A program made the translations under genes and the position numbers. Below, in pieces: positions 2,599-38,085 of a stretch of DNA of 39,330 nucleotides. The stretch is from an uncultured Bacteroidales bacterium (lineage in GTDB: Bacteria; Bacteroidota; Bacteroidia; Bacteroidales; Paludibacteraceae): positions 1-39,330 of the forward strand of contig ONUF01000030.1 in assembly GCA_900321005.1 (NCBI GenBank). Direction: 5' to 3'. Below the pieces are notes generated by a model that made no database searches, had not been told where the DNA came from, and saw nothing but the letters and a program-made list of their open reading frames with translations. Positions within the stretch are counted from its first letter, which is position 1. Every line of letters starts with the position of its first letter.

Positions 2599-3357
2599 AC
2601 TAAGAAACAACAACGACATATCATCGCTTCGGTAGGTACGGTGCTATTCCTGCTGCTGGTGTTCCTCATCCTTTGGTTTTGTTACCTGACGGCGGTAGCG
2701 CCGGAGCAGGAAGAAGGCGTGGAGGTGGAGTTCGCCGAGATAGAGGAGTTGGACGAACCGGAAGAACCCTCGCTGTCGGCTTATGCCGAAGAACCCTCGG
2801 AGGCAGCACCTGCTGCTCCTGCGTCTCCCGCAGTAGTGGCCACCGACCCGAAACCCGCTTCGCCTCCTGAGCATATCGTCTCCGAAGAAGAGACCTTGGC
2901 GCTCGAGCGGGCACGTAAGGAGAAAGAGGAGCGCGAGGCTGCCGAGCGGGCACGTAAGAAGAAAGAAGCGGAGGCTATCGCCAAAGCCCAACAAATGGGC
3001 AATCTGTTCGGCAAGACCGACGGTACCAGCGTCGGCGGAGGTGACACGAAGGGCGAAGGACAGAAAGGCAACCCGGTGGGACACGGTTCCAGCGGTACGG
3101 GTTCGTGGAAACTCGACGGGCGAGGTCTCAAAGGTAACCTGCCGGCTCCGTCCAAAGACTTCAAACAGGAAGGAAAAGTGGTGGTGCAGATCCGCGTGAA
3201 TGCTGCCGGACAAGTCGTCAGCGCTGCGGTCACCGGTGGTGACGTATCGGACAAAACGACCCAACAACTCGCACTCGATGCGGCCAAAAGGGCTAAGTTC
3301 ACCGAGGGCGAACATGATCAGATCGGAACAATTACCTATATATTTAAGTTAAATTAG
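2596..3357 (+). CDS. TonB-like energy transducer
   Basis: Couples the ExbB/ExbD channel to outer-membrane receptors. The 253-residue protein begins with a basic N-terminus and one membrane anchor (about residues 9-31). An acidic Glu/Pro-rich stretch follows, then a Pro/Ala segment, then a highly charged Arg/Lys/Glu helix (about 95-135) of TolA-like character. A Gly-rich linker leads to a C-terminal TonB domain (about 170-253) with the VQIRVNAAGQV strand and a final TYIFKL strand. The start is GTG at 2596; there is no in-frame ATG at a sensible place. Low-complexity middle regions are usual for TonB/TolA. It follows exbD by 23 bases and belongs to the same operon. Confidence 0.88.
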   Translation: MTKKQQRHIIASVGTVLFLLLVFLILWFCYLTAVAPEQEEGVEVEFAEIEELDEPEEPSLSAYAEEPSEAAPAAPASPAVVATDPKPASPPEHIVSEEETLALERARKEKEEREAAERARKKKEAEAIAKAQQMGNLFGKTDGTSVGGGDTKGEGQKGNPVGHGSSGTGSWKLDGRGLKGNLPAPSKDFKQEGKVVVQIRVNAAGQVVSAAVTGGDVSDKTTQQLALDAAKRAKFTEGEHDQIGTITYIFKLN

Positions 3358-3366
3358 AAATTTAAC

Positions 3367-3394
3367 ATTTGTCATTTGTAATTTGTAATTTTTT
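3367..3394. repeat. 7-bp tandem array before the DJ-1 gene
   Basis: Units ATTTGTC, ATTTGTA, ATTTGTA and a degenerate ATTTTTT run directly up to the ATG at 3395, filling the 37-base gap after the TonB-like gene. Confidence 0.85.
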
Positions 3395-3922
3395 ATGAAC
3401 TACTTATTTTTAGACAACGGTTTCGAAGAAATCGAAGCAATCACGACAATTGACTTACTCCGCCGCGCGAATATCGCGTTGACGACTGTCTCTATCACCG
3501 GCAATCCGATGGTGCTGGGCGCACATAATATCGCGGTGGAGGCCGACGGACTCATCGAGCGTATTGACTTCTCGGATGCAGAGATGTTGATCCTTCCCGG
3601 TGGACAGACGAAGTTAGGCGACTGTTCCGCTTTGTGCGAGTTATTGATCGACCATAACAATGCCGGCAAACTGATTGCAGCAATCTGCGCAGCGCCGGCG
3701 GTGCTTGGTAAACTCGGTATCCTGAAGGGCAAACAAGCTACCTGCTATCCCGGTTTCCAGGATGCGTTAGGCGAGAGTTACGTAGGTGGTCTGGTGGTAG
3801 AATCGAAGAATATCATCACGGCGAAAGGACCCGGTCTGAGTTCCGACTTCGCCTTTTGTATCATCGAGCGCTTAGTCGGCAGCGAAGCGGCTGATGCGGT
3901 CTATGATGCTGCTCAATACTGA
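3395..3922 (+). CDS. DJ-1/PfpI family protein
   Basis: A cytosolic protein of the DJ-1/ThiJ/YajL branch, a group linked to protection against reactive carbonyls and oxidative stress; the exact reaction is debated for the family. The 175-residue length is typical. Family marks are the N-terminal glutamate region (LDNGFEEIEA), the LILPGG loop, and the nucleophile elbow AAICAAP with the conserved reactive cysteine near residue 101. It lies 37 bases after the TonB-like gene and may be the last gene of that operon. Its 3' end overlaps the convergent coaE gene by 51 bases. Confidence 0.92.
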   Translation: MNYLFLDNGFEEIEAITTIDLLRRANIALTTVSITGNPMVLGAHNIAVEADGLIERIDFSDAEMLILPGGQTKLGDCSALCELLIDHNNAGKLIAAICAAPAVLGKLGILKGKQATCYPGFQDALGESYVGGLVVESKNIITAKGPGLSSDFAFCIIERLVGSEAADAVYDAAQY

Positions 3923-4483
3923 TGCATCGTCATTGATGACGGTAAGAATACGTCCCTGCGGTACTTCGGTGCTCGCAGGGATTTCTTTTTGCGCGTGTAT
4001 GCGTGCACGTACCTTATTTATATTCTCAGGGGTAGCCTCCCCCTGATAGTCCCGCGCAATCGTCCGGGCGATGCGCGTCTCTTCGGGCGCAGTAACCACG
4101 ACAATCTTGTCGCATAACACGTCGAATCCCGACTCGAAGAGGATAGCCGACTCTATGAATAAAGGAGAATGGTGAGAAGGGAAAGAGGAAAGGATGTCCG
4201 CTTTGACCGCCGGATGAACAATCTTATTAAGTTTGTTTAATAACTTCGGATCTGCAAAGACGCGCTTGGCGACATACTCCGTATTATAGATGATAGATGA
4301 TTGATGATAGATGAAGGCTTCTTCGCCGAGCAGGTCGATGATGGCTGCTTGTACCTCTTTATTCTCCGCGATGATACGTTTGGCCTCGCGGTCGCAGTCA
4401 TAGACGGCATACCCGCGTTGAGCGAGTGCCTGAGCGATATAACTCTTACCGCTGCCTATTCCACCTGTGAGACCAATGATCAT
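3872..4483 (-). CDS. coaE: Dephospho-CoA kinase
   Basis: Phosphorylates the 3'-hydroxyl of dephospho-CoA, the last step of coenzyme A synthesis. The 203-residue protein starts with the P-loop IGLTGGIGSGKS; the family DxD region is seen as YDCDREAKR, and HPAVK and the FIESAILFESGF segment are also typical. The longer frame up to 4522 adds 13 residues with no family match, so ATG at 4483 is preferred. A 7-bp repeat array (4286-4313) lies in frame between GEEAF and EYVAKRVF and produces the odd stretch YHQSSIIYN; relatives carry a slightly shorter loop there. Last gene of the dxs-trkA-trkH-SGNH-MBOAT series, 59 bases after MBOAT, and converging on the DJ-1 gene. Confidence 0.94.
   Translation of the reverse strand: MIIGLTGGIGSGKSYIAQALAQRGYAVYDCDREAKRIIAENKEVQAAIIDLLGEEAFIYHQSSIIYNTEYVAKRVFADPKLLNKLNKIVHPAVKADILSSFPSHHSPLFIESAILFESGFDVLCDKIVVVTAPEETRIARTIARDYQGEATPENINKVRARIHAQKEIPASTEVPQGRILTVINDDASVLSSIIDRISRFAAD
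4286..4313. repeat. 7-bp tandem array inside coaE
   Basis: Four heptamers ATAGATG, ATAGATG, ATTGATG, ATAGATG (plus-strand reading) lie inside the coaE frame. Since 28 is not a multiple of three, the array must have arisen with compensating edges or replaced native sequence; the gene stays open. Confidence 0.85.
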
Positions 4484-4510
4484 CTTATAACTTACAACTA
4501 GACGACTTCT

Positions 4511-4538
4511 TTCAACTTTCAACTTTCAACTCTCAACT
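4511..4538. repeat. 7-bp tandem array, MBOAT-coaE gap
   Basis: Three TTCAACT units and one CTCAACT (plus-strand reading) fill most of the gap between the MBOAT stop (4543) and the coaE start (4483). The reverse strand reads AGTTGAA, the same unit found at 25411-25456. Confidence 0.88.
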
Positions 4539-4542
4539 ATTT

Positions 4543-6486
4543 TCAGAATTGGAAGTAGATGAATGGTTGCATATCGGCGGTGACGAACTGGTAGATGAGG
4601 ACGATAGCAAGGCATACAACGATCACGATCAGCCACAACGGCATCGCCGAGAAGAGCAGACGGTACCGGCGTTTCCAGTTGGTAGGCAACCAGTGAATGA
4701 CCATTCCGGCAACGAACATCGCGACTACCCAGCGGTATTCCACCAGGAAAGGACCGATGACGGCATTCGTCCATGCCCCGCCGATCTGGTTCACCATATT
4801 CTTCGCTGTCTCCCATGCCACCTCGTTGGCGGTCGCCGGGTCGAGGTTACTGCTCGAACGGAAGAACAGACGCGTGAAGGTAATAAACGTAAAAGTCTGC
4901 AAAACAGCCCAGGCTGTACCTAAAGCCTTCGTGAACTTTGTCTCCGCCCCCTCGCATAGGAAATAGATGTATCTTACGGCAGTAACCACCCAGATGATAG
5001 CCGCCCACACCGCGAAGAGTCGCCATACGGGCAGGTTCGTCAGATAGTCTGCGATACAAAGCCCGCCCGTTAGAAGCGTCATGGTCGTAAAGCGGATATG
5101 CCAATTCATCTCACGCCAGATTTTCTCCACAATCATTCCAATACCGTTGATACCACCCCAAATGATGAAGTTCCAACTCGCGCCGTGCCATAAACCGCCG
5201 AGTACCTGCGTGATGAACGAGTTGAGGTTGGCGTATAGCAGTTTGCGCTGATTGCTGATTGCTGATTTCTGATTGCTGATTTGGATCTTATTCCAAATCG
5301 CTACCGCTACGATGAACACGCCGAAAGGTATCAATATCCACCACCAACCTGTGAGGGCGGCAGAGACGAAGGCAATGAGCGTCCACCAGAAATAGGTTCC
5401 AAACCCGATCTTGCGGTTTCCGCCCAGCGGGATATACAGATAGGTCTTGAGCCATCGTCCCAGCGACATGTGCCAACGACGCCAGAACTCCTGGGGACTC
5501 TGCGACTTATACGGCGAGTTGAAGTTCATCGGCAGATAAAATCCCATCAGCATCGCTACGCCGATCGCTATATCCGTGTAACCCGAGAAGTCGGCATAGA
5601 CCTGCAGCGAGTAGGCAAAGAGTGCGAACAGGTTCTCGAAGCCCGAGAACAGCAACGGGTTGTCGAACACGCGGTCGATGAGGTTGACGGCCAGGTAATC
5701 CGACATAATGATCTTCTTCGCCAAGCCGTTGATGATCCAGAACACCGCAATGCCGAAGGCCCTTCGACTGAGATGGAAGGGCTTGTATAACTGCGGCACA
5801 AACTCTTCGGCACGCACGATAGGACCTGCCACCAGTTGCGGGAAGAAGCTGACGTAGAAACCGAAGTCCAAGATGTTCTTCACCGGTTGTATTCGTCCTC
5901 GGAAGACATCCGCCGTATATGAGATGACCTGGAAGATATAGAACGAGATACCTACCGGTAGCACGATCGTGTCCACGCTAAACCGCCCTGCTTGTGAGAA
6001 ACCATTTCCGATATACGCGAAGATATCGAATACCCGGAAACCTGTTCCGAACAGGTCGTTGATCATGTTCGTAAAGAAATACGCGTACTTGAAATAGGCG
6101 AGTAAGCCCAAATCTATTGTCACCGAAAGCGCCAATAGGATTTTGGCGTGTAGCGGACTAGCGTCCTGTTTAGCGGCCTGCGGCCTGTTTAGCGCTGCGC
6201 TGTTTAGATGTTTATGCACCTGCGCAGCGATGAGCCATTCGGAGAGGGTGATGAACGCGAGTATCAGCAGGAACAGACCGCTCGTTTTGTAGTAGAAGAA
6301 CCAACTGACGAACAGCAGATAGACGTTGCGAAGATGCAGTTTCTTGTTGCCGAGTCGGTTGGGCACGGCTTCCATGATCAGCGCAAAGAGCGCATATACC
6401 AATGCAAAGAACGCCCAGAAGTAAAACTGGGTGAAGAGCAGCGGGCTGTCTGCGTTAAATCCTAATATGTGGCGGATAAAATCCAT
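4543..6486 (-). CDS. MBOAT family O-acyltransferase (AlgI-like)
   Basis: A multi-pass inner-membrane enzyme expected to move acyl (often acetyl) groups across the membrane onto a glycan, as AlgI does for alginate or PatA for peptidoglycan. The 647-residue protein has about a dozen hydrophobic segments. Family signatures are EFWRRWHMSLGRWLK (residues 334-348), YIPLGGNRK, and the catalytic-histidine segment LGGLWHGASWNFIIWGG with His at about 435. Between LGGNRK and that segment lies an extra part (about 360-415) with one or two further hydrophobic helices and a heptamer-encoded peptide. Another low-complexity stretch is at residues 94-115. Its 5' end overlaps the SGNH hydrolase gene by 25 bases; the two probably act as a pair. 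The acceptor glycan is unknown. Confidence 0.92.
   Translation of the reverse strand: MDFIRHILGFNADSPLLFTQFYFWAFFALVYALFALIMEAVPNRLGNKKLHLRNVYLLFVSWFFYYKTSGLFLLILAFITLSEWLIAAQVHKHLNSAALNRPQAAKQDASPLHAKILLALSVTIDLGLLAYFKYAYFFTNMINDLFGTGFRVFDIFAYIGNGFSQAGRFSVDTIVLPVGISFYIFQVISYTADVFRGRIQPVKNILDFGFYVSFFPQLVAGPIVRAEEFVPQLYKPFHLSRRAFGIAVFWIINGLAKKIIMSDYLAVNLIDRVFDNPLLFSGFENLFALFAYSLQVYADFSGYTDIAIGVAMLMGFYLPMNFNSPYKSQSPQEFWRRWHMSLGRWLKTYLYIPLGGNRKIGFGTYFWWTLIAFVSAALTGWWWILIPFGVFIVAVAIWNKIQISNQKSAISNQRKLLYANLNSFITQVLGGLWHGASWNFIIWGGINGIGMIVEKIWREMNWHIRFTTMTLLTGGLCIADYLTNLPVWRLFAVWAAIIWVVTAVRYIYFLCEGAETKFTKALGTAWAVLQTFTFITFTRLFFRSSSNLDPATANEVAWETAKNMVNQIGGAWTNAVIGPFLVEYRWVVAMFVAGMVIHWLPTNWKRRYRLLFSAMPLWLIVIVVCLAIVLIYQFVTADMQPFIYFQF
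5250..5284. repeat. 7-bp tandem array inside the MBOAT gene
   Basis: Five heptamers: GATTGCT, GATTGCT, GATTTCT, GATTGCT, GATTTGG (plus-strand reading). On the coding strand they encode the hydrophilic peptide QISNQKSAISNQ (residues 402-413), between hydrophobic helices. The core AATCAG-type unit is also seen at 28791-28818. Confidence 0.9.
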
Positions 6487-7769: not shown

Positions 7770-9218
7770 TTACTTCTTCCAAAGCGCTCTACTGAAGAGC
7801 AACAGCACCGTGAATATCTCGAGACGACCGATAAGCATCACAAAGGTCGCCACCCATTTCGCTGCGGCCGGTAGGGCAGCGTAGCATCCGCTCGATCCCC
7901 ACTGTCCGATAGACACGCCGACATTTCCGATCATCGAAGCGGCGATACCGAACGACTCGTCGAAACCGATACCGCAGCCGCAGAACCAGAGCGTCGCCAG
8001 CAGGATGATGACGATGTAGAAGAACATAAACGCCATCACATTACTCGTCGTCTGCTCGCGCAGCGTCTGGCCGTTGAAGCGAACCGGAATGACTGCATTC
8101 GGATGGATGCGACGCTTGATTTCCGCCAAAGCAGACTTGGCAAAGATAGCGATGCGCACCCATTTCATACCTCCGGAAGTCGAACCCGACGCACCGCCGG
8201 TGAACATCATAAAGAAGACAAGCACCCAGAGGACGGACGGCCATATCATATAGTCGGCAGCCACAAATCCCGTACTGGTGATCATCGCGATGGAGGTGAA
8301 GAATCCAATACGGATACTGGACCACATGCCGGAATAGATGAACAACCCGATCGCGAGTATCAGTCCTCCTGCTATACATGCGCCTACGTACCAATGCGTC
8401 TCTTCGTCATGGAGTACACGCTGGGGCTTGCCGCGGAAGAGGTAGATGAGTTGCGTGAAGTTGATACCCGAGAGAAGCATGAAGAGCATGATGATCCATT
8501 GGATGGCGGGACTGTAACCGATGACGCTGTCGTTGTGCGTCGCAAAACCGCCGGTGGAGATTGTCGCCATCGAATGGCATATAGCGTCGAAGCGACCCAT
8601 ACCAAAGAGCCATAACAGCAGTCCTTCGGCGATGGTCAGACCGATATACGTCAACCACATATGCTTGGCCGTGTCGGCGATACGCGGACTGAGTTTCTCG
8701 TAACTCACGCCCGTCACTTCGGCGCTGTAGAGCTGCATGCCGCCCAGACCGAACATAGGCAAGATCGCCACACTCAGCACGATGATACCCATACCTCCGA
8801 TCCATTGCGTGAGCGCGCGCCATAAGAGCACGGAATGCGTCTGAGCAGTGATGTCCGTGAAGACGGTCGAACCGGTGGTGGTGAATCCCGCCATAGTCTC
8901 GTACCACGCGTCGGTGATTGTCGGTAGGGCGCCACTCAGCCAGTAGGGTAACATGCCGAAGAGTGAATAGACGAGCCATACGGCGGCGACAATCACATAG
9001 CCTTCGCGCTCGCCCACACGTTTCTCCGCCTTCCGTCCTGCGCCTAACAACCACCAGCAGTTGATCCATGTGATGACGCTCGAGACCAGCCATGCGCCGA
9101 GATCCGCCTCGTGGTACCACCATGCGACGAACGTAGGCACCAACATGAAGATGGCCTCCAGCAGGGTGAGCACACCCATCGTCTTAAAGACTATGCGCCA
9201 GTTGAAGGTTCGTGTCAT
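7770..9218 (-). CDS. trkH: Trk/Ktr potassium uptake membrane subunit TrkH
   Basis: The pore-forming subunit of a K+ uptake system, gated by the cytosolic TrkA ring. The 482-residue protein has many membrane segments and the four pore loops expected of the TrkH/KtrB/HKT family: FTTTGSTVF (about 112), TISTGGFATH (about 220), ITSTGFVAAD (about 310) and the final GNVGVSI (about 440), each with the selectivity-filter glycine. Its ATG overlaps the trkA TGA by four bases (ATGA), so the two subunits are translationally coupled. Length is normal for the family. Confidence 0.95.
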   Translation of the reverse strand: MTRTFNWRIVFKTMGVLTLLEAIFMLVPTFVAWWYHEADLGAWLVSSVITWINCWWLLGAGRKAEKRVGEREGYVIVAAVWLVYSLFGMLPYWLSGALPTITDAWYETMAGFTTTGSTVFTDITAQTHSVLLWRALTQWIGGMGIIVLSVAILPMFGLGGMQLYSAEVTGVSYEKLSPRIADTAKHMWLTYIGLTIAEGLLLWLFGMGRFDAICHSMATISTGGFATHNDSVIGYSPAIQWIIMLFMLLSGINFTQLIYLFRGKPQRVLHDEETHWYVGACIAGGLILAIGLFIYSGMWSSIRIGFFTSIAMITSTGFVAADYMIWPSVLWVLVFFMMFTGGASGSTSGGMKWVRIAIFAKSALAEIKRRIHPNAVIPVRFNGQTLREQTTSNVMAFMFFYIVIILLATLWFCGCGIGFDESFGIAASMIGNVGVSIGQWGSSGCYAALPAAAKWVATFVMLIGRLEIFTVLLLFSRALWKK

Positions 9219-10549
9219 TTGAAGAAACGCTCTAAGGTTCGTATTACATGACTCTTGCAGAAGACAACGACCAGGTCTCCGGCAATCACTTGGGTATCGC
9301 CGTTAACGAGTATTCCCTCGCCGGCTCGCACGATACCGCCGATATTCGCCTCTTCCGGCAAGTTGAGATGTTTGACCTGACGGCGAGTGATCGTGCTGCC
9401 TTCCTTCGCGTAGAACTCGACGATCTCCGCGTCTGCGCTTGTCAGGTTATGCACGCCGCGTACACTCGCATCAAGGAGCATTTGGTAGATATAACTCGCG
9501 GCGATGGTTTTCTTGTTGAGCACGGTGCCGATATCCAGTCCTTCGGCCATGGGTATATAATCGAGGTTCTCCACCTCGGCGATGGTCTTACGGACACCAA
9601 AACGCTTGGCAGCCAGACACGCGAAGATATTCGCTTCGCTGCTATCCGTCACGGCTACGAAAGCGTCCGCATCCTGGATACCTTCTTCTTTGAGCACGTC
9701 CATATCGGAGCCGTCGGCATTGATGATGAGCGCGTTCGGCACTTTCTCGCTCAGGATATTACACAGTTCGCGGTCTTTCTCGATGATCTTGATATTCATC
9801 TCGTCCGTCAGTTCGGTCGCTGCCTTGCGGGTGATGCGGTCGCCGCCGAAGAAGATGACGTTCTTGATCTCGCGTTTGGATTTGCCGAGTTCCTCGCGCA
9901 TGAACTCCATGTCCTCTTTTGGACATACGCAATAGACCATATCGTTCTCCATCACCATGTCTTGTCCGCGCGGGATGATAGTCTCCTGATCGCGCTTGAT
10001 GGCTACGATGCGATATTTGCCGTGGTTATAGACGCCGGAGGCGAACTCCTGACCGATGATCTTCGCGGCCGAACGCACTTTGACGATGCACAGCTCCAGT
10101 GCGCCTTGACAGAGGTGCAGGTGGTATCGCATCCAGTTGGTGCGCAGACTCTCTTCGATCTCATTGGCCGCCAGCACCTCCGGATAGATGAGGTGGTTCA
10201 GACCCATGTTCTCAAAGAACTTCTTGTTCTCCGGCAACAGATACTCGTAATTATCGATACGCGCGAGTGTTCGTTTGGCACCCAGGCTGTTGGCGATCAG
10301 ACAGGCTGTCATGTTCTCCGTCTCGTGGGGAGTTACGGAGATGAACAGGTCGCAGTCTTTGACACCGATCTCCCGTAGATCATGGATAGAAGTGGGGCTA
10401 CCCACTTTCGTGAGCATGTCGTAGTTGGCGCTCAGGTCACCTAACCGCTCCCGGCTCTCGTCGAGCAGACTGATCTCCATGTCTTCGCGGCTCAGCAGTT
10501 TTGCCAAGTGCGTGCCTACTTCTCCGGCACCAGCGATAACAATTCGCAT
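9215..10549 (-). CDS. trkA: Trk potassium uptake regulatory protein TrkA
   Basis: Cytosolic, nucleotide-binding gating subunit for TrkH. The 444-residue protein contains two RCK units, each an NAD-binding Rossmann (TrkA-N) domain plus a TrkA-C domain. The first begins [17 protein letters not shown] with acidic ribose-binding residues in LLDES; the second begins near residue 230 ([12 protein letters not shown]), with a less canonical glycine pattern. Two-domain TrkA is the usual form. It overlaps the end of dxs by 34 bases and the start of trkH by 4. A long antisense frame (9248-10378) is only a codon-bias shadow. Confidence 0.95.
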
Positions 10550-12450
10550 AATAATCCCTCCTTGTCTAATTTAAGCATATGATACAGCTCTTTGGTCGAG
10601 CCGTGTTCAACAAACTGATCTTTTACGCCGAGACGTATCACGCGGGGCGTATAGCCGTGGTCGGCCATCCATTCCAGCACCGCACTTCCCAGACCTCCGG
10701 CTATCATGCCGTCTTCGGCGGTGACGATGGTCTTGAATTTCTTGCCCACTTCATGAAGTATCTCCTCGTCCATAGGCTTGAGCCATCGCATGTCGTAATG
10801 CGCAAATGATAAGGGTGAATGGCTAATGGTTATTGGCGAATGTCCGTTAGCCTCTAACCTTTCGCCTTTAGCCATCTCGATCGCCTCGCTCATGGCGTTT
10901 CCGATAGAGCCGATAGTGAGTACGGCGATATCTTTTCCGTCTCGGAGTTTGACGCCCTTGCCGTATTTCACCATTTCACCATTAAGCGAAGCGTCACCAT
11001 TTGCATCATTCTCCATCGGCGTCCTTCCCCTCGGATAGCGGATAGCAATCGGTCCTTCGAGTTTCTCCGCGAGCGTCAACATTTCCCGCAGGTCATCGCC
11101 TGTACGCGGGGCGCAAATCTGCATGTTAGGTATGGGACGCAGATACGCCAGGTCGAGCAGTCCGTGGTGGGTGGCTCCATCGTTGCCGACGATACCTGCG
11201 CGGTCGATACAGAAGACGACATGCAGGTTCTGCAGCGCTACGTCATGTACGATATTGTCATACGCGCGTTGCAGGAAGGTGGAGTAGATATTGCAATAGG
11301 GCAGCATACCCGCCTTCGCGAGTCCGGCGCTGAAGGTCACGGCGTGTCCTTCGGCGATACCGACGTCATAGACGCGATCGGGCAACTCTTTCTGCATGAT
11401 ACTCATCGAGCAACCCGACGGCATGGCGGGCGTGATACCCACGATCTTCTCGTTGCGTCTCGCCAAGTCCAACAGCGTGTTACCAAACACTTCCTGCCAT
11501 AAGGGCGTCGTGTCGCCATTCGCCATTAACCGTTCGCCATTCGCCACATTGAATTCTCCCGGCGCATGCCAAACCGTTTGGTCGTTCTCTGCGGGCGCGT
11601 AGCCTTTACCTTTCTTGGTGATGATATGCAGCACTTTCGGTCCGCGGTGGTTCTTGATCTCACTCAAGATACGCACCAGCCCTACCACGTCATGTCCGTC
11701 CGTAGGACCGAAATAACGGATGTTCAGACCCGTGAAGATATTGCTCTTCTGCTTGCTCAGCGCCGCTTTCCAGTTGTTGTTACGACGCAGAATGCGCTTG
11801 CGTTTCTCATCGTTCATCAGGTGCAATTTCACCGCCAATTGATAGAACCGCCAGCGCCACTTGTTATACGCCGCACTGGTGGTCAGGTCCACGAGATATT
11901 GGGTAAATCCGCCTTTGAGCGGGTCGATTGCCATGTGGTTGTCGTTCAGCACGATGAGCAGATTGTTCTTGTCCATCGAGGTGTTGTTCAGTCCCTCGAA
12001 CGCCAAACCGCCCGTCATGGCGCCGTCGCCGATGATAGCTACGACATTATGCCCGTCAGCAATATCCAGACCGAGCGCCGCCGAGATAGAATTGCTCGCA
12101 TGTCCGGCGATAAACGCATCGTACTCGCTCTCCGCGGGATTCGTGAAGGGCGACAGACCTTTGAACTGCCTATTGGTATGAAAGCGGTCGCGACGACCGG
12201 TGAGAATCTTATGCGCGTAAGCCTGATGACCTACGTCCCACACTAACTTATCGTTCGGCGTGTCGAACACATAATGTAAGGCTACCGTCAACTCGATAGC
12301 ACCCAAAGAGGATGCCAGGTGACCGGGGTTCTTACTTAATGCCTCGATGATAAACTGCCTCAACTCCGCACACACGGCGGGCAACTCCTCCATCTTCAAC
12401 TGCTTCAAATCCGCCGGCGAATCAATCTTATTGATGTATTGATATTCCAT
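10516..12450 (-). CDS. dxs: 1-deoxy-D-xylulose-5-phosphate synthase
   Basis: A thiamine-diphosphate enzyme that joins pyruvate and glyceraldehyde 3-phosphate to give DXP, first step of the MEP isoprenoid pathway and precursor for vitamin B6 through PdxJ. The 644-residue protein shows [38 protein letters not shown], the ThDP/Mg motif [16 protein letters not shown] and the late [12 protein letters not shown] region. Two 7-bp arrays lie in frame: one (11514-11548) gives [13 protein letters not shown] just after the HAPGEFN region, the other (10815-10877) gives [11 protein letters not shown] followed by [10 protein letters not shown] in the transketolase C-terminal part. First gene of the operon, with its own promoter at 12529-12559 and a roughly 75-nt leader containing small hairpins. 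Confidence 0.96.
10815..10877. repeat. Heptameric array inside dxs, C-terminal copy
   Basis: Nine 7-base units (63 bases, 21 codons): GTGAATG, GCTAATG, GTTATTG, GCGAATG, then TCCGTTA, GCCTCTA, ACCTTTC, GCCTTTA, GCCATCT. The first half and second half run in opposite orientations, making an imperfect inverted pair. The coding strand gives [11 protein letters not shown] then [11 protein letters not shown] few shorter CCATT-type repeats occur near 10971-10990. Confidence 0.8.
11514..11548. repeat. Heptameric array inside dxs, middle copy
   Basis: Five units: CGCCATT, CGCCATT, AACCGTT, CGCCATT, CGCCACA (plus-strand reading). The coding strand yields [11 protein letters not shown], nearly the peptide given by the other dxs array. 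Confidence 0.85.
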
Positions 12451-23151: not shown

Positions 23152-25412
23152 TTTATCCAACCAACATAGAGCAGAAGATTGACTTCACGGTGATCCGTGA
23201 GGAGTTGCTTCGTCGTTGTGCTTCGCCTTTAGGGCGCGAGCGCGTAGAGGCGATGCAGATGGAGACGGATTTTGCGAAGGTGCAGCATCTGCTGTGCCTG
23301 ACGGACCAGATGCGCATGGCGCAGTCCGATCCCATGCTCACCTTCCCCCGAGGCACGATCCATGACATGCGCGAGTCTATCGCCCGTATCCGCATCGCGG
23401 GATTGTTTCTCGACGAGGCGGAGTTGGACGACCTGCGTAAGACCCTGTCCTTTGCCGCCGACTTAGAGACTTTCTTCGCTTCGCTCGACGAACAGCGCTA
23501 TCCGCTGTTGCGCGAACTTCCGAATAATCAGAATAATTCGAGTACGCTGAATAACATCGTCAGCGAGATTGACCGGATCCTGGACCGCTACGGCAAGTTA
23601 GCAGACCATGCTTCGCCGGAACTGGCGCAGATACGTCGTGAGTTGACGAACGCACAAGGCAGCGTCAGCCGTACGCTCGCCGCCATCCTTCGTCAGGCCA
23701 AAGCGGATGGATTGGTGGATGCCGACGCCGCGCCGACGCTGCGCGAAGGACGATTGGTGATACCTGTTCCGCCCGGATACAAGCGTAAGATAGGCGGTAT
23801 CGTGCACGATGAGTCGGCGACCGGAAAGACGGTCTATATCGAACCCCAACAGGTGGTAGATGCCAACAACCGCATTCGTGAGTTAGAGGGCGCAGAGCGC
23901 CGCGAACGCGTACGGATTTTGCAAGCCGTCACGGACAAACTGCGTCCGCAGACAGACCTGATACTCGCCAACCAACGGATGTTAGCGGAAGTGGATTTTC
24001 TGAGCGCCAAAGTGTCGCTCGCCGAGACCCTGCATGCCATCCGCCCGGAATTGCATGATGCGCCCCTGATAGACTGGAGCGATGCCCGTCATCCGGTGTT
24101 GTGGCTCCATTATACGCCGCAGAACAAACCGGTGGTTCCTCTCTCGGTGCGCTTGCAAGCCGGCGAGAACCGCGTGTTGGTCATCAGTGGACCGAACGCC
24201 GGAGGTAAGTCGGTTTGTCTCAAGACCGTCGCGCTGCTCCAATACATGCTGCAATGCGGTTTGTTAGTGCCGGTGGCGGAGCAGAGTAGGGCGGGACTGT
24301 TTGAGCAACTGATGATAGACATCGGCGATGAGCAGTCAATACAAGACGAACTGTCCACCTACTCGTCGCATCTGAGGAACATGAAGTATTTCCTGCGCAA
24401 CGCGAACGAGAAGACCTTGTTCCTGATTGACGAGATGGGTTCCGGCACCGAGCCCTTGATCGGCGGTGCGTTAGCGGAGTCGATGTTGCGCGAGTTGGTA
24501 GGCAAAGGCGCTTTCGGACTCGTCACAACGCACTATACCAACCTCAAGCATTTTGCGGAACAGACGCATGGCGTGGTGAACGGCGCGATGCTGTACGACC
24601 GCGGTGCGATGCGTCCGCTCTTTCAGTTATCCATCGGTCAAGCCGGCAGTTCGTTCGCTATCGAGATAGCGCGCCAGACGGGACTCGGGGAGTCGATTAT
24701 TCAATATGCGACCGACTTGGTAGGCGAAGAGCATATCGACTACGACAAGCAGTTACAGGATATCGCGCGGGACAAGCGCTATTGGGAGAACAAGCGGCAG
24801 GCGATTCGTCAGAAAGAGAAAGACTTAGAGGCCAAGATAGCCGATTATGAAGAGCGCCTGTCGGGTGTCAAGCAGCAGAAGAAAGCCATCCTCGACGAGG
24901 CGCGTGAACAAGCGGCGGAGTTGTTGCAACAATCGAACGCGACCATTGAAAGAACTATCCGCGAGATCAAAGAGGCCAAGGCTGACAAACAGAAGACCAA
25001 AGAGGCGCGCGCCAAGGTGGAGGCGATGAAAGAGCAAGTCGGAAAACCGAAAGCCCTCAAGGACTTCAAAGATCTGAAGGTGCTGAAGAACGCCGTTCCT
25101 GCCGCTCCGTCTTCTACCGCGTCTATCGTTCGTCAGCGGACCTTGTCTTTCTCCCGTACCTTAGACTTGCGGGGCTATCGGGCCGATGAAGCATTGGAAA
25201 AACTGATCGCCTACATGGACGACGCGCTGATGGTCGGAGCCGGCGAGGTGACAATCCTGCACGGCACAGGCACCGGTGCGCTGAAACAACTGACGCGCGA
25301 CTACCTCAACGACCTGAACCGCCGGCGTCGCAAGCGCGGACAAATAGCCCTCGACTTCGGAGACGGAGACGTGAACCACGGAGGAGCGGGATTGACGGTG
25401 GTGAGATTATAG
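23148..25412 (+). CDS. mutS2: Endonuclease MutS2
   Basis: A MutS-family ATPase with a C-terminal Smr nuclease domain, linked in other bacteria to limiting recombination or rescuing collided ribosomes. The 754-residue protein has the MutS core and clamp, Walker A ISGPNAGGKS (about 345), Walker B LFLIDEMGSGTEP (about 424), a long charged coiled coil (about 530-640) and the Smr domain LDLRGYRADEAL...HGTGTGALK (about 672-750). GTG at 23148 is preferred because it repeats the GTGA overlap of the previous pair; an upstream TTG at 23133 is possible. A Lys-rich LKDFKDLKVLKN stretch at about 630-640 derives from a loose 9-bp repeat. Confidence 0.93.
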   Translation: MIYPTNIEQKIDFTVIREELLRRCASPLGRERVEAMQMETDFAKVQHLLCLTDQMRMAQSDPMLTFPRGTIHDMRESIARIRIAGLFLDEAELDDLRKTLSFAADLETFFASLDEQRYPLLRELPNNQNNSSTLNNIVSEIDRILDRYGKLADHASPELAQIRRELTNAQGSVSRTLAAILRQAKADGLVDADAAPTLREGRLVIPVPPGYKRKIGGIVHDESATGKTVYIEPQQVVDANNRIRELEGAERRERVRILQAVTDKLRPQTDLILANQRMLAEVDFLSAKVSLAETLHAIRPELHDAPLIDWSDARHPVLWLHYTPQNKPVVPLSVRLQAGENRVLVISGPNAGGKSVCLKTVALLQYMLQCGLLVPVAEQSRAGLFEQLMIDIGDEQSIQDELSTYSSHLRNMKYFLRNANEKTLFLIDEMGSGTEPLIGGALAESMLRELVGKGAFGLVTTHYTNLKHFAEQTHGVVNGAMLYDRGAMRPLFQLSIGQAGSSFAIEIARQTGLGESIIQYATDLVGEEHIDYDKQLQDIARDKRYWENKRQAIRQKEKDLEAKIADYEERLSGVKQQKKAILDEAREQAAELLQQSNATIERTIREIKEAKADKQKTKEARAKVEAMKEQVGKPKALKDFKDLKVLKNAVPAAPSSTASIVRQRTLSFSRTLDLRGYRADEALEKLIAYMDDALMVGAGEVTILHGTGTGALKQLTRDYLNDLNRRRRKRGQIALDFGDGDVNHGGAGLTVVRL

Positions 25413-25456
25413 TTGAAAGTTGAAAGTTGAAAGAAGTTAGAAAGTTGAAAGTTTAA
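25411..25456. repeat. 7-bp tandem array after mutS2
   Basis: AGTTGAA three times from within the mutS2 stop codon, then AGAAGTT, and after a slip AGTTGAA and AGTTTAA, reaching almost to the ATG at 25461. The same unit in reverse complement forms the MBOAT-coaE array. Confidence 0.85.
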
Positions 25457-25460
25457 AGAT

Positions 25461-28777: not shown

Positions 28778-30842
28778 GTTGGATATATTTGTGGTTTGTG
28801 ATTTGTGATTTCTGATTTTCGACGCCTGTCGGTATATCTATGTCGAGCAGGTAGAGAATCGCATTCTCGATGAGTTGCATGCCCTCTTGCGTGAGGTCGG
28901 TTGTGGAGTACTCCGACACGCCGATCATCACCATGCGTTGGGGAAGGATGGTTCCGTTACAATTGGTCCCGGCCGGAAAGTCTGCGATGGAGGTAGAGCC
29001 GGGCTGCGAGACGGGAGTGCCGAGCAGTTCAAAGCCCGCGGTGTTCGTCCATTCCGAGATAGCCGTCACGGCATTGGTGGTGCATTTCGAGAACAGCGGT
29101 AACTCGTTATTGGTGATGGTCAGTCCTCGAAAAAGCGGGTGTTCCGGTGCGGTAACGTGGACACTCAAGTCTGCGGTATTTACTGCTGTTCCCCAGTTCC
29201 ATACATTGGCTTTCAGCAGCCAGGGCTTGAGTAATACGATTGGTTTGTTATAGCCTTTGAGGGCTGTAAATCCAGCGGCTGAAGAACTTGGTTTGCAACC
29301 CAACACCAGTACTTCATAGTTGCTGTAGTCCACCGACACATCGGTAGCGTCGGTCTCCACCACCCAAAGTTTGTCGTTCGTCCGCAGCTGTTTGAGCAGC
29401 GGTTTGTCTTCCGACGCACCGATGAGGGTGACAAACGCTACGGCGTGCGTACCTTCCGGTTGCACCGCAGGAATAGTGTCTTCCTCTTCGGGCTGATGTT
29501 CCTCGCCCGGCACCTCATAGCAACCGAGATCCGGTGCGTCACCGTTGAATCCAAGGTTCACATCAATACCCGCATCGATGAGTGCGGAACCTTCGGCTAA
29601 ATGTAGGCAATCACCTTCGTTGAGTTCGCTGTTGCCGTTACGCGGCGCGAGGATCTGAGTGGTATCCAACGAAACGAAATCGGCATTCTTCACCGAGAAA
29701 CCATTCCAACTGTTATGGTTGATAGCTACGACATTTTGTGCCTTATAACTGTCGTTGTTCTGCGTCTTGTAGGTGAGACAGTTCTGGATGGTATTCGTGC
29801 CGTATTTGGTGGTGAAACCGTAGTTGGTGTTGTTGGCATAGGCGGTGTTGTTATACAGCCACATCGTTCCGCCGTTGTTGTTTTGGTCGAATCCGCGGGC
29901 GTAATTGCCTACCGCCAGGCAGTGGTGAATAAGTATTTTATGGTCTGTAAATTGTCCGCCCATCTTAAAGCCGTTTCCGTTTCCCTGACACGGGTATTTC
30001 TTGAGCGTGATAGTGATGGTGTTACCATAGCGATCGACGACCTGCGTACCCACTTTGCTGTCGAACCAAGCCTTATCAACACCCAGCGCACGCGGATGTT
30101 GGCTCATGTCGTAGTACGGTGCACCGTTTTGGTAACAGATACAATGCTCGATGACGGTGTTGGAGTTGCTGACGCGCTGGAAGAAATCCCAGCCGTCATC
30201 GCTGTTGTTCCATGCGCGGCAACCGATATAGTGGTTTCCCGCTCCGGTGAACTGTTTGTCGGCAAAACCGTCGGCGTTGCCGCCGAAATTAGCCGTCGTG
30301 CCGGACATGGTCTCGTAGTCAAAATTATCGTGCGAATCGACATTCTTGATGATGTTATTGCCGCCTACCTTCATTTGGCATCCGGTGTCCGCGGAACCGT
30401 AGATGTCGAGGTTCTCAAACAGGCAGTACGAACCTTCGTTGTAGAGGTTGTTCTTTCCGGAATAGCGAAGCGTGAGGTTCTTGATATGCAGGTAGGTGCA
30501 GGAGTTCTTGATCTGCAATCCGCGTGTGCCGTACGGGGTGGAACGGAAATCGAGAATCGCCGCGTAGGTGCCGCCGCGAGTGATACCTTCGTAACCGGAT
30601 ATGACGATGCGCTTGGACGCGGTGCCGTTCAGTTTCTGGATGGCGGTATTGCCCAGGTCATATTGCCCGCTGAAGAGATACAGCGTGTCGCCGGCATTCG
30701 TCAGTTTCTTCAGTCCGTCTGCGAAGGACGCGGGTTTGCTGAACGAACCATCGCCTTTGCCGTCCGGCGAGGCATAGTAGGTGGCAGCACTCAGGCTGAC
30801 GGTCAACAGCGTTGTTGCGATAAAAAGAAATGAACGTTTCAT
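28710..30842 (-). CDS. PL9-like pectate lyase with C-terminal secretion tail
   Basis: A secreted right-handed parallel beta-helix enzyme. The 710-residue protein has a signal peptide (MKRSFLFIATTLLTVSLSA). Its beta helix (about 20-430) carries the marks of polysaccharide lyase family 9: NADGFAD (about 192), NNSDDGWDFF (about 215-223) for calcium, and the likely catalytic Lys in GNGFKMGG (about 292), as known from Erwinia Pel9A. A flavodoxin/GATase-like domain follows (about 480-670). The last residues (GKLFIEASGAVYDATGRRMAR) form a sorting tail like that of the 19230 LRR protein; the linker before it is built from heptamer repeats. ATG at 30842 is preferred (ATGA overlap with GT2). Substrate may be pectin or another uronic polymer. 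Confidence 0.85.
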   Translation of the reverse strand: MKRSFLFIATTLLTVSLSAATYYASPDGKGDGSFSKPASFADGLKKLTNAGDTLYLFSGQYDLGNTAIQKLNGTASKRIVISGYEGITRGGTYAAILDFRSTPYGTRGLQIKNSCTYLHIKNLTLRYSGKNNLYNEGSYCLFENLDIYGSADTGCQMKVGGNNIIKNVDSHDNFDYETMSGTTANFGGNADGFADKQFTGAGNHYIGCRAWNNSDDGWDFFQRVSNSNTVIEHCICYQNGAPYYDMSQHPRALGVDKAWFDSKVGTQVVDRYGNTITITLKKYPCQGNGNGFKMGGQFTDHKILIHHCLAVGNYARGFDQNNNGGTMWLYNNTAYANNTNYGFTTKYGTNTIQNCLTYKTQNNDSYKAQNVVAINHNSWNGFSVKNADFVSLDTTQILAPRNGNSELNEGDCLHLAEGSALIDAGIDVNLGFNGDAPDLGCYEVPGEEHQPEEEDTIPAVQPEGTHAVAFVTLIGASEDKPLLKQLRTNDKLWVVETDATDVSVDYSNYEVLVLGCKPSSSAAGFTALKGYNKPIVLLKPWLLKANVWNWGTAVNTADLSVHVTAPEHPLFRGLTITNNELPLFSKCTTNAVTAISEWTNTAGFELLGTPVSQPGSTSIADFPAGTNCNGTILPQRMVMIGVSEYSTTDLTQEGMQLIENAILYLLDIDIPTGVENQKSQITNHKYIQHGKLFIEASGAVYDATGRRMAR
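28791..28818. repeat. 7-bp tandem array in the PL9 tail linker and LRR leader
   Basis: Four units, GTGGTTT, GTGATTT, GTGATTT, CTGATTT (plus-strand reading). On the coding strand they encode part of ENQKSQITNHK just before the sorting tail and also lie 14-41 bases upstream of the overlapping LRR start codon. Confidence 0.85.
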
Positions 30843-36280: not shown

Positions 36281-38085
36281 TCGTATAGTTTTTGTTCTAT
36301 CTGGTGTTTGACGGTTTCGTATTTCCGGAAGTTCTCCTGCGTTTGGTTTTCCGGCAGGGAGAGGAGTTGTTCCATCTCTGCCTGTTGGGCTTCCAAGGCT
36401 GCGATAGCTTCTTCGGTCTCGGCTATCTGCCGCTCTTTCTTTCGTTTCTCCGCCGCTGCGGCTTTTTGTGAGGCATAATCCAAGGCTCCAGAGAAGCCTG
36501 ACGTTGGCTTTGACTGTCGGTTGACCGTCGGTTGACCGTCGGTATTCTGAGTGTTTTGGGTGCTCTGAGTGCTTGGATTCTTTTTCTCCAACTCCTGCAG
36601 GTTGGTTATTTTCTTCGTGCGGAGGAAGTCGTAGATACCACCGAGGTGTTCGCGCACATGTCCGCCGCCAAACTCATACACTTTGGTGACAAGTCCGTTG
36701 AGGAAATCGCGGTCATGGCTGACGCATATGAGTGTGCCGTCGAAGGCCTGTAGTGCAGCTTTGAGTACATCTTTGGATTGCATGTCGAGGTGGTTAGTCG
36801 GCTCGTCGAGGATGAGCAGGTTGCATGGCTCGAGCAGCAGACGAATCATCGCCAAGCGGCTTCGTTCGCCGCCGGAGAGCACTTTGACTTTCTTGTCGGA
36901 CGCTTCGCCGCCGAACATAAAGGCGCCGAGGATGTCGCGAATCTTTGTGCGGATATCTCCTACTGCCACATAGTCGATCGTTTCAAAGACGGTCTTGTTT
37001 TCGTCCAGCAGCGCCGCTTGGTTTTGGGCGAAATAGCCGATCTTGACGTTGTGACCGATCTTGAGGTTACCCAAGTAGTCGAGTTGGCCCATGATACACT
37101 TGACGAGCGTCGTTTTTCCTTCGCCGTTCTTGCCGACGAAGGCCACTTTCTCGCCGCGACGGATGGTGAAATTCACATCATGGAAGACGTTGTGCGAACC
37201 GAAATCCTTGCGCAAGTCTTCGATGATGAGCGGGAAGTCTCCGCTGCGCGGGGCAGGCGGAAAACGGAGGTTAAGACGTGAGGTGTCTTCGAGGTCCACT
37301 TCCAGTCGTTCGAGTTTCTCGAGTTGCTTGATACGACTCTGCACTTGTACGGCTTTGGTCGCTTTGTAGCGGAAACGCTCGATGAACTCTTCGGTGTCCT
37401 GAATCATCTTCTGCTGGTTCTGGTACGCCCTCACTTGTTGTTCGTGCCTTTCTTTACGTAACGCCACAAAACGAGTATAATTAACATTGTAATCATATAT
37501 TCGTCCGAGTGTTATTTCGATGGTTCGACCGCACACGTTGTCGATGAACGCGCGGTCGTGACTGACCATGAGTACGGCCGACGGACTCGCTTTGAGGAAG
37601 TCCTCCAACCATTGGATAGACTCGATATCGAGGTGGTTGGTTGGCTCGTCGAGGAGCAATAAGTCCGGATGACGCAAGAGAATCTTGGCTAACTCTATAC
37701 GCATTCGCCATCCGCCGGAGAATTCGGAGCAGGGTCTTTCAAAGTCTTTGCGCTCGAAGCCAAGACCGATGATTGTTCTGTCCATCTCGGCAATAAACCG
37801 CGCCTCGTCTTCGCCCGCGAAAACAGTCATCACTTCTTCGCGCAGCGTCCGGTCATCGTGGAAAAGCATGACTTGCGGCAGATAGCCGATCGTCATGTCG
37901 GCTTCGCGGGCAATGCGTCCGCTGGTCGGTTGGTACTCCCCTGCGATGAGTCGCAGAAGGGTCGTTTTGCCCGCTCCGTTCTTGCCCACCAGCGCTACAC
38001 GTTCCTTACGGTTGATAAGGAAAGTGATGTCGTCCAGCACGGGACGCGCCGAGAACTCCATACTTACGTGATCAATGGTCAGCAT
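36256..38085 (-). CDS. ABC-F family ATPase
   Basis: A soluble twin-ATPase protein of the ABC-F group, members of which act on ribosomes. The 609-residue protein has two nucleotide-binding domains: Walker A GKNGAGKTT (about 37) with signature SEFSGGWRMR and Walker B LLLLDEPTNHLD (about 165); then GKNGEGKTT (about 346) with VLSGGERSRLA and LLILDEPTNHLD (about 455). The interdomain linker (about 235-290) is charged. A C-terminal coiled coil (about 550-605) is preceded by a repeat-encoded Thr/Gln/Asn stretch. ATG at 38085 is chosen over 38271, whose extra 62 residues come from the IS region. Uup/YheS-like; resistance function not indicated. Confidence 0.92.
   Translation of the reverse strand: MLTIDHVSMEFSARPVLDDITFLINRKERVALVGKNGAGKTTLLRLIAGEYQPTSGRIAREADMTIGYLPQVMLFHDDRTLREEVMTVFAGEDEARFIAEMDRTIIGLGFERKDFERPCSEFSGGWRMRIELAKILLRHPDLLLLDEPTNHLDIESIQWLEDFLKASPSAVLMVSHDRAFIDNVCGRTIEITLGRIYDYNVNYTRFVALRKERHEQQVRAYQNQQKMIQDTEEFIERFRYKATKAVQVQSRIKQLEKLERLEVDLEDTSRLNLRFPPAPRSGDFPLIIEDLRKDFGSHNVFHDVNFTIRRGEKVAFVGKNGEGKTTLVKCIMGQLDYLGNLKIGHNVKIGYFAQNQAALLDENKTVFETIDYVAVGDIRTKIRDILGAFMFGGEASDKKVKVLSGGERSRLAMIRLLLEPCNLLILDEPTNHLDMQSKDVLKAALQAFDGTLICVSHDRDFLNGLVTKVYEFGGGHVREHLGGIYDFLRTKKITNLQELEKKNPSTQSTQNTQNTDGQPTVNRQSKPTSGFSGALDYASQKAAAAEKRKKERQIAETEEAIAALEAQQAEMEQLLSLPENQTQENFRKYETVKHQIEQKLYEWELLSES
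36512..36580. repeat. 11-bp and 9-bp tandem arrays inside the ABC-F gene
   Basis: Three 11-base units, GACTGTCGGTT, GACCGTCGGTT, GACCGTCGGTA (36512-36544), abut four 9-base units of TTCTGAGTG type (36545-36580). On the coding strand they encode NPSTQSTQNTQNT and then DGQPTVNRQSK, a polar linker before the C-terminal coiled coil. Both blocks keep the frame (33 and 36 bases). Confidence 0.9.

Follow-up and report, generated by a model that had tools for sequence, protein, structure and literature searches.

The question raised by this locus is why two separate loops of one enzyme should be encoded by short repeated DNA that spells nearly the same peptide twice. The window (the whole 39,330-nt stretch of DNA that was analysed) is contig 29 of a genome, 2.12 Mb in size and 78% complete, from an uncultured member of the Paludibacteraceae, and the gene concerned is dxs, which belongs to the isoprenoid pathway. 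The best solved relative of its product is 2o1s_A (E 2.9e-146), solved DXP synthases align to it across almost its full length, and its named relatives belong to metagenome-assembled genomes of Paludibacteraceae and Bacteroidales, the samples being mostly rumen or other ruminant gut. The features on which the question turns are these:

10516–12450, minus strand: dxs, 1-deoxy-D-xylulose-5-phosphate synthase, an intact open frame of 644 aa
11513–11546, minus strand: array 1 (site 1), GGCGAAT/GGCGAAC/GGTTAAT heptamers within the stretch encoding an 11-residue peptide, after WHAPGEF
10843–10875, minus strand: gene-strand half of array 2 (site 2), GGCTAAA GGCGAAA GGTTAGA GGCTAAC GGA, encoding 11 residues
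10814–10842, plus strand: reversed half of array 2, the heptamer family of the gene-strand half on the opposite strand, giving 10 residues in the gene frame
10965–10983, minus strand: short 8-nt repeat ATTTCACC (as read on the plus strand), found by TRF at dxs site B, where other species have period-7 arrays

Both arrays are built of degenerate GGYKAAW heptamers lying in frame within dxs, each spelling a similar 11-residue peptide, and the initial annotation was right that the open frame holds both. Array 1 (TRF score 47, period-7 score 13.2) adjoins WHAPGEF at a position which we take to be the linker between Dxs domains I and II. Array 2 is absent as a tandem array from both the TRF list and the period-7 filter list. 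It had been described as nine 7-mers that keep the frame, but in fact 10814–10875 comprises 33 nt of gene-strand heptamers and a further 29 nt in which members of that family run the other way. It is the net gain, divisible by three, that preserves the reading frame: the site-2 loop is 75 nt long in the window and 21 nt in many array-free loops of relatives. Two relatives, L056 and L088, have a closely matching gene-strand half; L056 lacks the reversed sequence, and its alignment with the window shows that part as a single 21-nt gap. The oppositely oriented half is thus real, matching GGYKAAW at 10814–10836 with 0–1 mismatches. The inverted arms lie at 10826–10840 and 10861–10875, and a 67-nt segment round the array has a predicted RNA fold of −19.5 kcal/mol (z −2.95; 3 of 200 shuffles fold equally well), indicating that the sequence can form a hairpin. 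Such a form is unusual: an inverted 9-mer partner within 70 nt was found for 2 of 56 sampled arrays as against 0.7 in controls, and a palindromic mobile element was rejected as the general form of the arrays because inverted partners are this rare. Rickettsia palindromic elements are likewise short repeats in frame within protein genes, but they are longer palindromes, and the inverted repeats that would mark such an element or a MITE are generally lacking here, although array 2 does have inverted arms. Array 2 resembles a GGYKAAW array at 9199–9234 of L145, which has reversed units a short way downstream.

The two similar peptides had been read as a sign of one sequence inserted twice, or copied between sites. 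Seven is not divisible by three, so a heptamer array, whichever frame is read, is translated into a single cycle of seven residues; stop-free GGYKAAW arrays read (G E R/W L/R M/K A/V N/K)n in all three, and every stop-free reading, in three frames, of random six-unit GGYKAAW arrays contains GE[RW]. The agreement is forced by the unit and is therefore not evidence for one insertion copied twice. What survives of the claim is that both arrays belong to one repeat family, which recurs elsewhere in the genome (11 places, including the two in dxs). The peptide had also been expected to be missing from Dxs proteins whose genes lack such repeats, and this is half correct: the full GERLxAN occurs in none of 7 distant array-free relatives, but GER occurs in 5 of them. 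At site 1, GER is found in 62 of 88 distinct loops, those 5 included, and GERLxAN in 11 of 88, all of them over 7-periodic DNA (scores 9.2–17.8). On this distribution GER at site 1 is ancestral, so that array 1 overlies old TGER codons. A mobile sequence that entered dxs twice, or moved from site to site, would explain why both sites have one heptamer family and a similar peptide, and why array 2, half of which is reversed, folds into a hairpin; but the peptide is forced, GER stood at site 1 already, the GGYKAAW family occurs at nine further places in the genome, the same sites in relatives each carry their own and often different family, and the alleles compared at both sites share no longer non-heptamer stretch. 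We rejected a single insertion as the source of both arrays on the ground that the peptide is forced, and we regard the twice-inserted sequence as very unlikely.

The arrays are better viewed against the rest of the genome. In 300,462 bases of it, drawn from contigs with GGYKAAW matches and so not a random sample, a middle threshold yielded 46 period-7 arrays versus 11 of period 8, 7 of period 11 and at most 4 at each remaining period that is not a multiple of 7. The strict threshold gave 32 period-7 arrays against 6, with none in simulated sequence, and the loosest gave 56, of which 29 lie within ORFs by a rough call (the greedy ORFs on which the coding and intergenic calls depend label 96% of bases as coding). 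In the window there are 8 strict period-7 runs, the dxs arrays not among them, versus none in 20 simulated sequences. Further period-7 arrays of the window, with script consensus units, are 1435–1465 (AATTATC), 2564–2597 (AAGAGCT), 3351–3396 (AAATTAC), 4283–4314 (AGATGAT), 4509–4538 (AAAGTTG), 5247–5281 (AATCAGC), 25404–25458 (AGATGAT) and 28788–28818 (AAATCAC); some of these eight are within ORFs. The window also has an 11-nt tandem repeat, TTGACCGTCGG, of 3.1 copies at 36510–36543. Of four genomes of the genus, three had period-7 densities of 13.0, 15.3 and 17.9 per 100 kb and one a density of 9.8, as compared with 6 arrays in 400 kb (0–5 per 100 kb) in ten other genomes of the phylum, a comparison in which 6 kb of the genome G182 was counted twice and neither side is random: each of the ten had at least one AATCANY array, and most stretches of G182 and its close relative G183 lie round or adjoin AATCANY matches.

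The initial annotation had proposed a search for such arrays in the genome and its relatives, and they are indeed there. Allowing one mismatch, GGYKAAW has 21 matches at the 11 places in the source genome; because the same pattern read backwards, as a control, has 12, single weak matches prove little. As an exact threefold repeat it has 11 matches there versus 3 in the control, and 13 of the 118 phylum genomes, the source genome among them, contain it, although in G071 and G076 the backwards control matches at least as often as the pattern. A second family, AATCANY, has 99 matches of its threefold form in the source genome versus 5 for the backwards control; among the 118 phylum genomes 26 have it and 16 the control, and it is found in 37 of 61 genomes of the genus, the source genome being included in both.

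Units are shared between loci. In the source genome 25 of the 46 arrays have exactly the unit of another array, where random genome heptamers give a mean of 2.0 and permuted letters a mean of 4.7; in 2000 draws the count never came to 25. When one mismatch is allowed, partners exist for 43 of 46 arrays versus a permuted mean of 36.4 and maximum of 43, so the sharing is clear for exact units only and the contrast is weak at one mismatch. In a second genome 3 of 13 arrays share an exact unit, which 7 and 3 of 2000 draws reach in the two controls. Preferred units also differ between congeneric species: for AATCANY, G044 has AATCACC at 7 of 7 kept loci, G035 and G049 have AATCATT (7 of 8 and 4 of 4) and G046 has AATCATC (20 of 29). 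Across the 105 loci of 24 genomes, unit agreement was 52% for pairs within a genome and 21% for pairs across genomes (0 of 5000 shuffles), in a table compiled by hand, among the matches listed, for 24 of the 37 genomes of the genus in which AATCANY occurs and omitting loci with mixed units only. Without G046 and the source genome the figures were 73% and 34% (0 of 5000 shuffles); with G035 and G049 also left out they were 69% and 49%, an association that 34 of 5000 shuffles reach. Species-specific units are not predicted by independent local slippage.

One could envision an enzyme that imposes such units, namely a telomerase-like reverse transcriptase (as DRT10) that copies an RNA template into heptamer arrays at breaks. 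Enzymes of this kind make tandem-repeat DNA (PMC12632851), and species-specific units would fit a template. The source genome, which is richest in AATCANY arrays, has a single RVT_1 match (G000 contig 27, 55920–56456), and that a weak one (32.6 bits, cut-off 29.6). But RVT_1 was found in only 15 of 61 genus genomes, the source genome included, and several unit families coexist in one genome. DRT10 is a weak rival because RVT_1 is missing from the array-bearing G035, G044, G046 and G049, which are 92–98% complete and have 13, 8, 57 and 5 AATCANY matches. We consequently rejected a reverse transcriptase as the array writer; from these domain counts it is unlikely that one is needed for the arrays, and writing from an RNA template is an explanation to which we give almost no weight.

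How such arrays behave over time can be followed in dxs itself, for which 110 genes, less 6 incomplete and 17 duplicates, left 87 distinct ones. In these, 114 of 115 period-7 arrays fall within four short segments. A labelled repeat is present at site 1 in 58 of 87 genes and at site 2 in 49 of 83, more than 10 repeat families occur at these two sites, and of the 107 labelled loops 87 have 7 as their best period; the regex family labels lump some arrays, as with a CAATGGA array in L035 labelled ACAAAGT. Elsewhere in the gene, other species have period-7 arrays at site A (near window residue 129; 18 of 63 genes, the site not being located in 24 of 87) and at site B (near window residue 480; 18 of 76 genes, not located in 11 of 87), with VESRKSKVER and TMDNGQ among the peptides at these sites; the window dxs has no array at site A and only the short 8-nt repeat at site B. 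In the model of the window protein (mean pLDDT 69, with 159 residues below 50 in at least 11 stretches) site 1 is predicted to be mostly coil and site B coil; site 2 ends in coil that follows a predicted helix, and site A is flanked by helices. The model quality is modest, so that these placements are weak, and little can be read from its low confidence at the loops. The same dxs loops hold two palindromic families that are not heptamers, labelled hpCTCCC (CTCCC...GGGAGG; L036, L039, L057, L066 and L114) and hpGTCCGAAGGAC (GTCCGAAGGAC; L035, L067, L075 and L091).

Families replace one another at these loops. On the tree, at least 42 changes are needed at site 1 (87 genes) and at least 40 at site 2 (83 genes), as compared with means of 53.7 and 47.0 and minima of 48 and 44 in 20 shuffles of the labels, so that the families carry some tree signal, though a modest one. 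The close pair L052 and L054 has a GTACAAA array versus an array-free loop at site 2; L036, L080 and L069 have three different families there; and L055 and L114 differ wholly at site 1 between flanks that are identical at 146 of 150 and 149 of 150 positions. This turnover bears on whether the loops and their peptides are selected for function. In its favour, arrays are retained in frame, and for CstA (described below) relatives have similar 7-residue cycles over DNA that is not periodic. Against it, families with unrelated peptides replace one another at the same loop, and 29 of 87 genes have no labelled repeat at site 1 and 34 of 83 none at site 2. We saw no sign of function in the peptide, and selection for function is a highly improbable account of the arrays.

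Some loops are identical in species whose dxs genes are only about 75% identical, which invites explanation by ordinary recombination, with old and rarely made array alleles swapped among co-resident species. Loop runs of at least 45 nt are identical in 14 of 1901 pairs at 70–80% identity and such runs outside the loops in 121 of 1901, the loops making up 8.8% of the gene; dxs is thus mosaic, but since long identical runs are about equally common per base elsewhere in it, the recombination is not loop-specific, and we make no claim for transfer of micro-tracts confined to loops. L039, L083, L101 and L089 share an identical left edge, GCCGCTGTGGAA, at site B; it is followed by the same array in three of them and by a different sequence in L089.

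Finer resolution is offered by G182 and G183, which align over 127,171 bases at 94.9% identity. Of their 36 array sites, 17 have an array in one genome only, 4 more do so by threshold although the sequence is conserved, 11 have the same units, 3 have diverged and 1 shows a length difference of exactly 7 nt. A score of at least 14.8 is reached by eleven one-only arrays; the other six score 11–13, near the threshold, where other periods also give matches (period 9: 8). At one further one-only site the sister allele is diverged rather than foreign sequence. Near an array (within 10 columns) lie 21 of 75 indels of at least 4 nt. Two of the replaced loops belong to genes that we take, from their sequences, to be CstA and HisRS. 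In CstA AGLKTMQFSGHM stands against CPLSTFNFQLST with length unchanged (score 22.7), and in HisRS LIEATEVKL stands against ELEIVQCTL, again with length unchanged (score 12.2, near threshold). The HisRS array is probably derived, because the window's genome and G183 share the non-array form, and it was likely imported by recombination, since array forms like it recur in other species (L188 and L190) and the flanks are 64/75 and 71/75 identical. In CstA, several relatives have a similar 7-residue cycle over non-periodic DNA, and this resembles an array that has decayed. Of the 32 rows for each gene, the loop could not be located in 6 for HisRS and 2 for CstA. Mean flank identity is 89.6% at one-only sites, 94% in random windows and 96% at shared arrays, and some of the one-only changes are probably recombination imports, others being confined to the loop. 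Of 13 one-only sites for which we tried to polarise the change, only dxs could be placed. The one-only arrays are already mixed in their units, the sister alleles show by eye at most a weak local seed, in six cases, and in the L056 and G182/G183 alignments the loop sequence is replaced with no target-site duplication visible by eye.

These data weigh on both remaining processes when either is taken by itself. Recombination would account for identical loops in otherwise divergent genes, the long identical runs elsewhere in dxs, the recurrence of ELEIVxCTL-type HisRS alleles in several species, the one-only flanks that are more diverged than average and the modest tree signal of the loop families. 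Some replacements, however, have near-identical flanks on both sides (L055/L114; one one-only site with 73/75 and 73/75), and the genome-wide period of 7 and the species-specific units are left unexplained, so exchange of old alleles is decidedly unlikely as the whole explanation. Purely local replication slippage with a 7-nt preference, a proposal attributed to Mrazek 2007, fits the dominance of period 7, the one exact 7-nt length change and the overlap of array 1 with the old GER codons. It does not explain exact units common to separate loci, units specific to species, or the replacement of the CstA and HisRS loops at constant length. Slippage alone fails because units are shared, one-only arrays are already mixed, two replacements involve no net change in length and seeds look weak at most; as a complete account we consider it unlikely.

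Period preference, unit sharing, confinement to a few dxs segments and family replacement are direct observations. The reading that we favour, with some confidence though by no means with certainty, is that the dxs arrays belong to a genome-wide population of heptamer repeats in rumen Paludibacteraceae, tolerated in loops, turning over fast, and spread by slipped synthesis, unit copying and recombination together. Under such circumstances, arrays would start and lengthen through slipped or template-switched DNA synthesis in 7-nt steps, the seed being either local sequence (as for array 1 over the old G-E-R codons) or a unit from other arrays in the cell; the step that copies units between loci would call for a putative donor and enzyme. 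Array alleles could then pass between related strains by recombination, while selection would purge those that break the frame, add stops or disturb the fold, so that the survivors would be loop arrays oriented without a stop in their reading. A bolder alternative, which we hold tentatively and think doubtful, is an active sequence-writing process that works in 7-nt steps and overwrites short stretches with degenerate heptamer arrays, each species having its own preferred unit and the length sometimes being kept; the loops of essential enzymes would then record 7-residue cycles that can outlast the DNA repeat.

Several parts of this picture have precedents. Long heptanucleotide simple sequence repeats are over-represented in bacterial genomes, and slippage has been suggested as the cause (Mrazek et al. 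2007, as cited in PMC4679880 and PMC4692102). The arrays here resemble them in having tandem 7-nt units in excess over other unit lengths, and differ in that they also occupy coding loops of conserved enzymes and have units that are shared between loci and specific to species. TAACTGA direct repeats, as outlined in PMC4679880, occur in Beggiatoaceae, cyanobacteria and five Bacteroidetes, with some in ORFs (MurG, PurC) for which a repeating peptide is given; they too form many heptamer loci, patchy across phyla and partly within ORFs, but they have one unit and, in that outline, are mostly intergenic, whereas here there are many units and about half of the arrays lie within ORFs (29 of 56 by the rough call). 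Neither TAACTGA nor its complement is the dxs unit, which is GGYKAAW. The GGGAATC and GGGGAYT repeats of Xanthomonas and Nostoc are likewise degenerate heptamers that vary in length and sequence between relatives and have some inverted parts, but their units are of G-quadruplex type and the relevant section of PMC4692102 describes them as intergenic. The closest parallel in behaviour is the P6b stem of the Nostoc trnL intron, where, on the evidence summarised in PMC4476775, one of two heptamer classes (class I TDNGATT, class II NNTGAGT) has repeatedly replaced the other in close relatives at a fixed site; there the site is a structural RNA stem with two classes, and here it is a set of protein loops with more than 10 families. 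Heptamer repeats in bacteria, their occurrence in ORFs and class replacement at a fixed site are thus already known, as far as these accounts go (PMC4679880, PMC4476775), and our searches, which did not take in most subscription papers, returned no paper on heptamer-array families replacing each other in protein loops of Bacteroidales.

For annotators and modellers of these proteins, cycles such as GERLxANG, VESQKSKVES and LKIQNSKLKI are most simply regarded as the translation of DNA repeats, and homology should not be argued from equal peptides at two sites. The cause of the 7-nt repeat excess in many bacterial genomes is unsettled, polymerase slippage having been proposed (as cited in PMC4679880). 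In the rumen Paludibacteraceae and their kin, the same dxs loops in 87 distinct relatives preserve a natural history of arrays being gained, replaced and perhaps decaying, and this record, taken with the units common to separate loci, makes the origin of the arrays testable.
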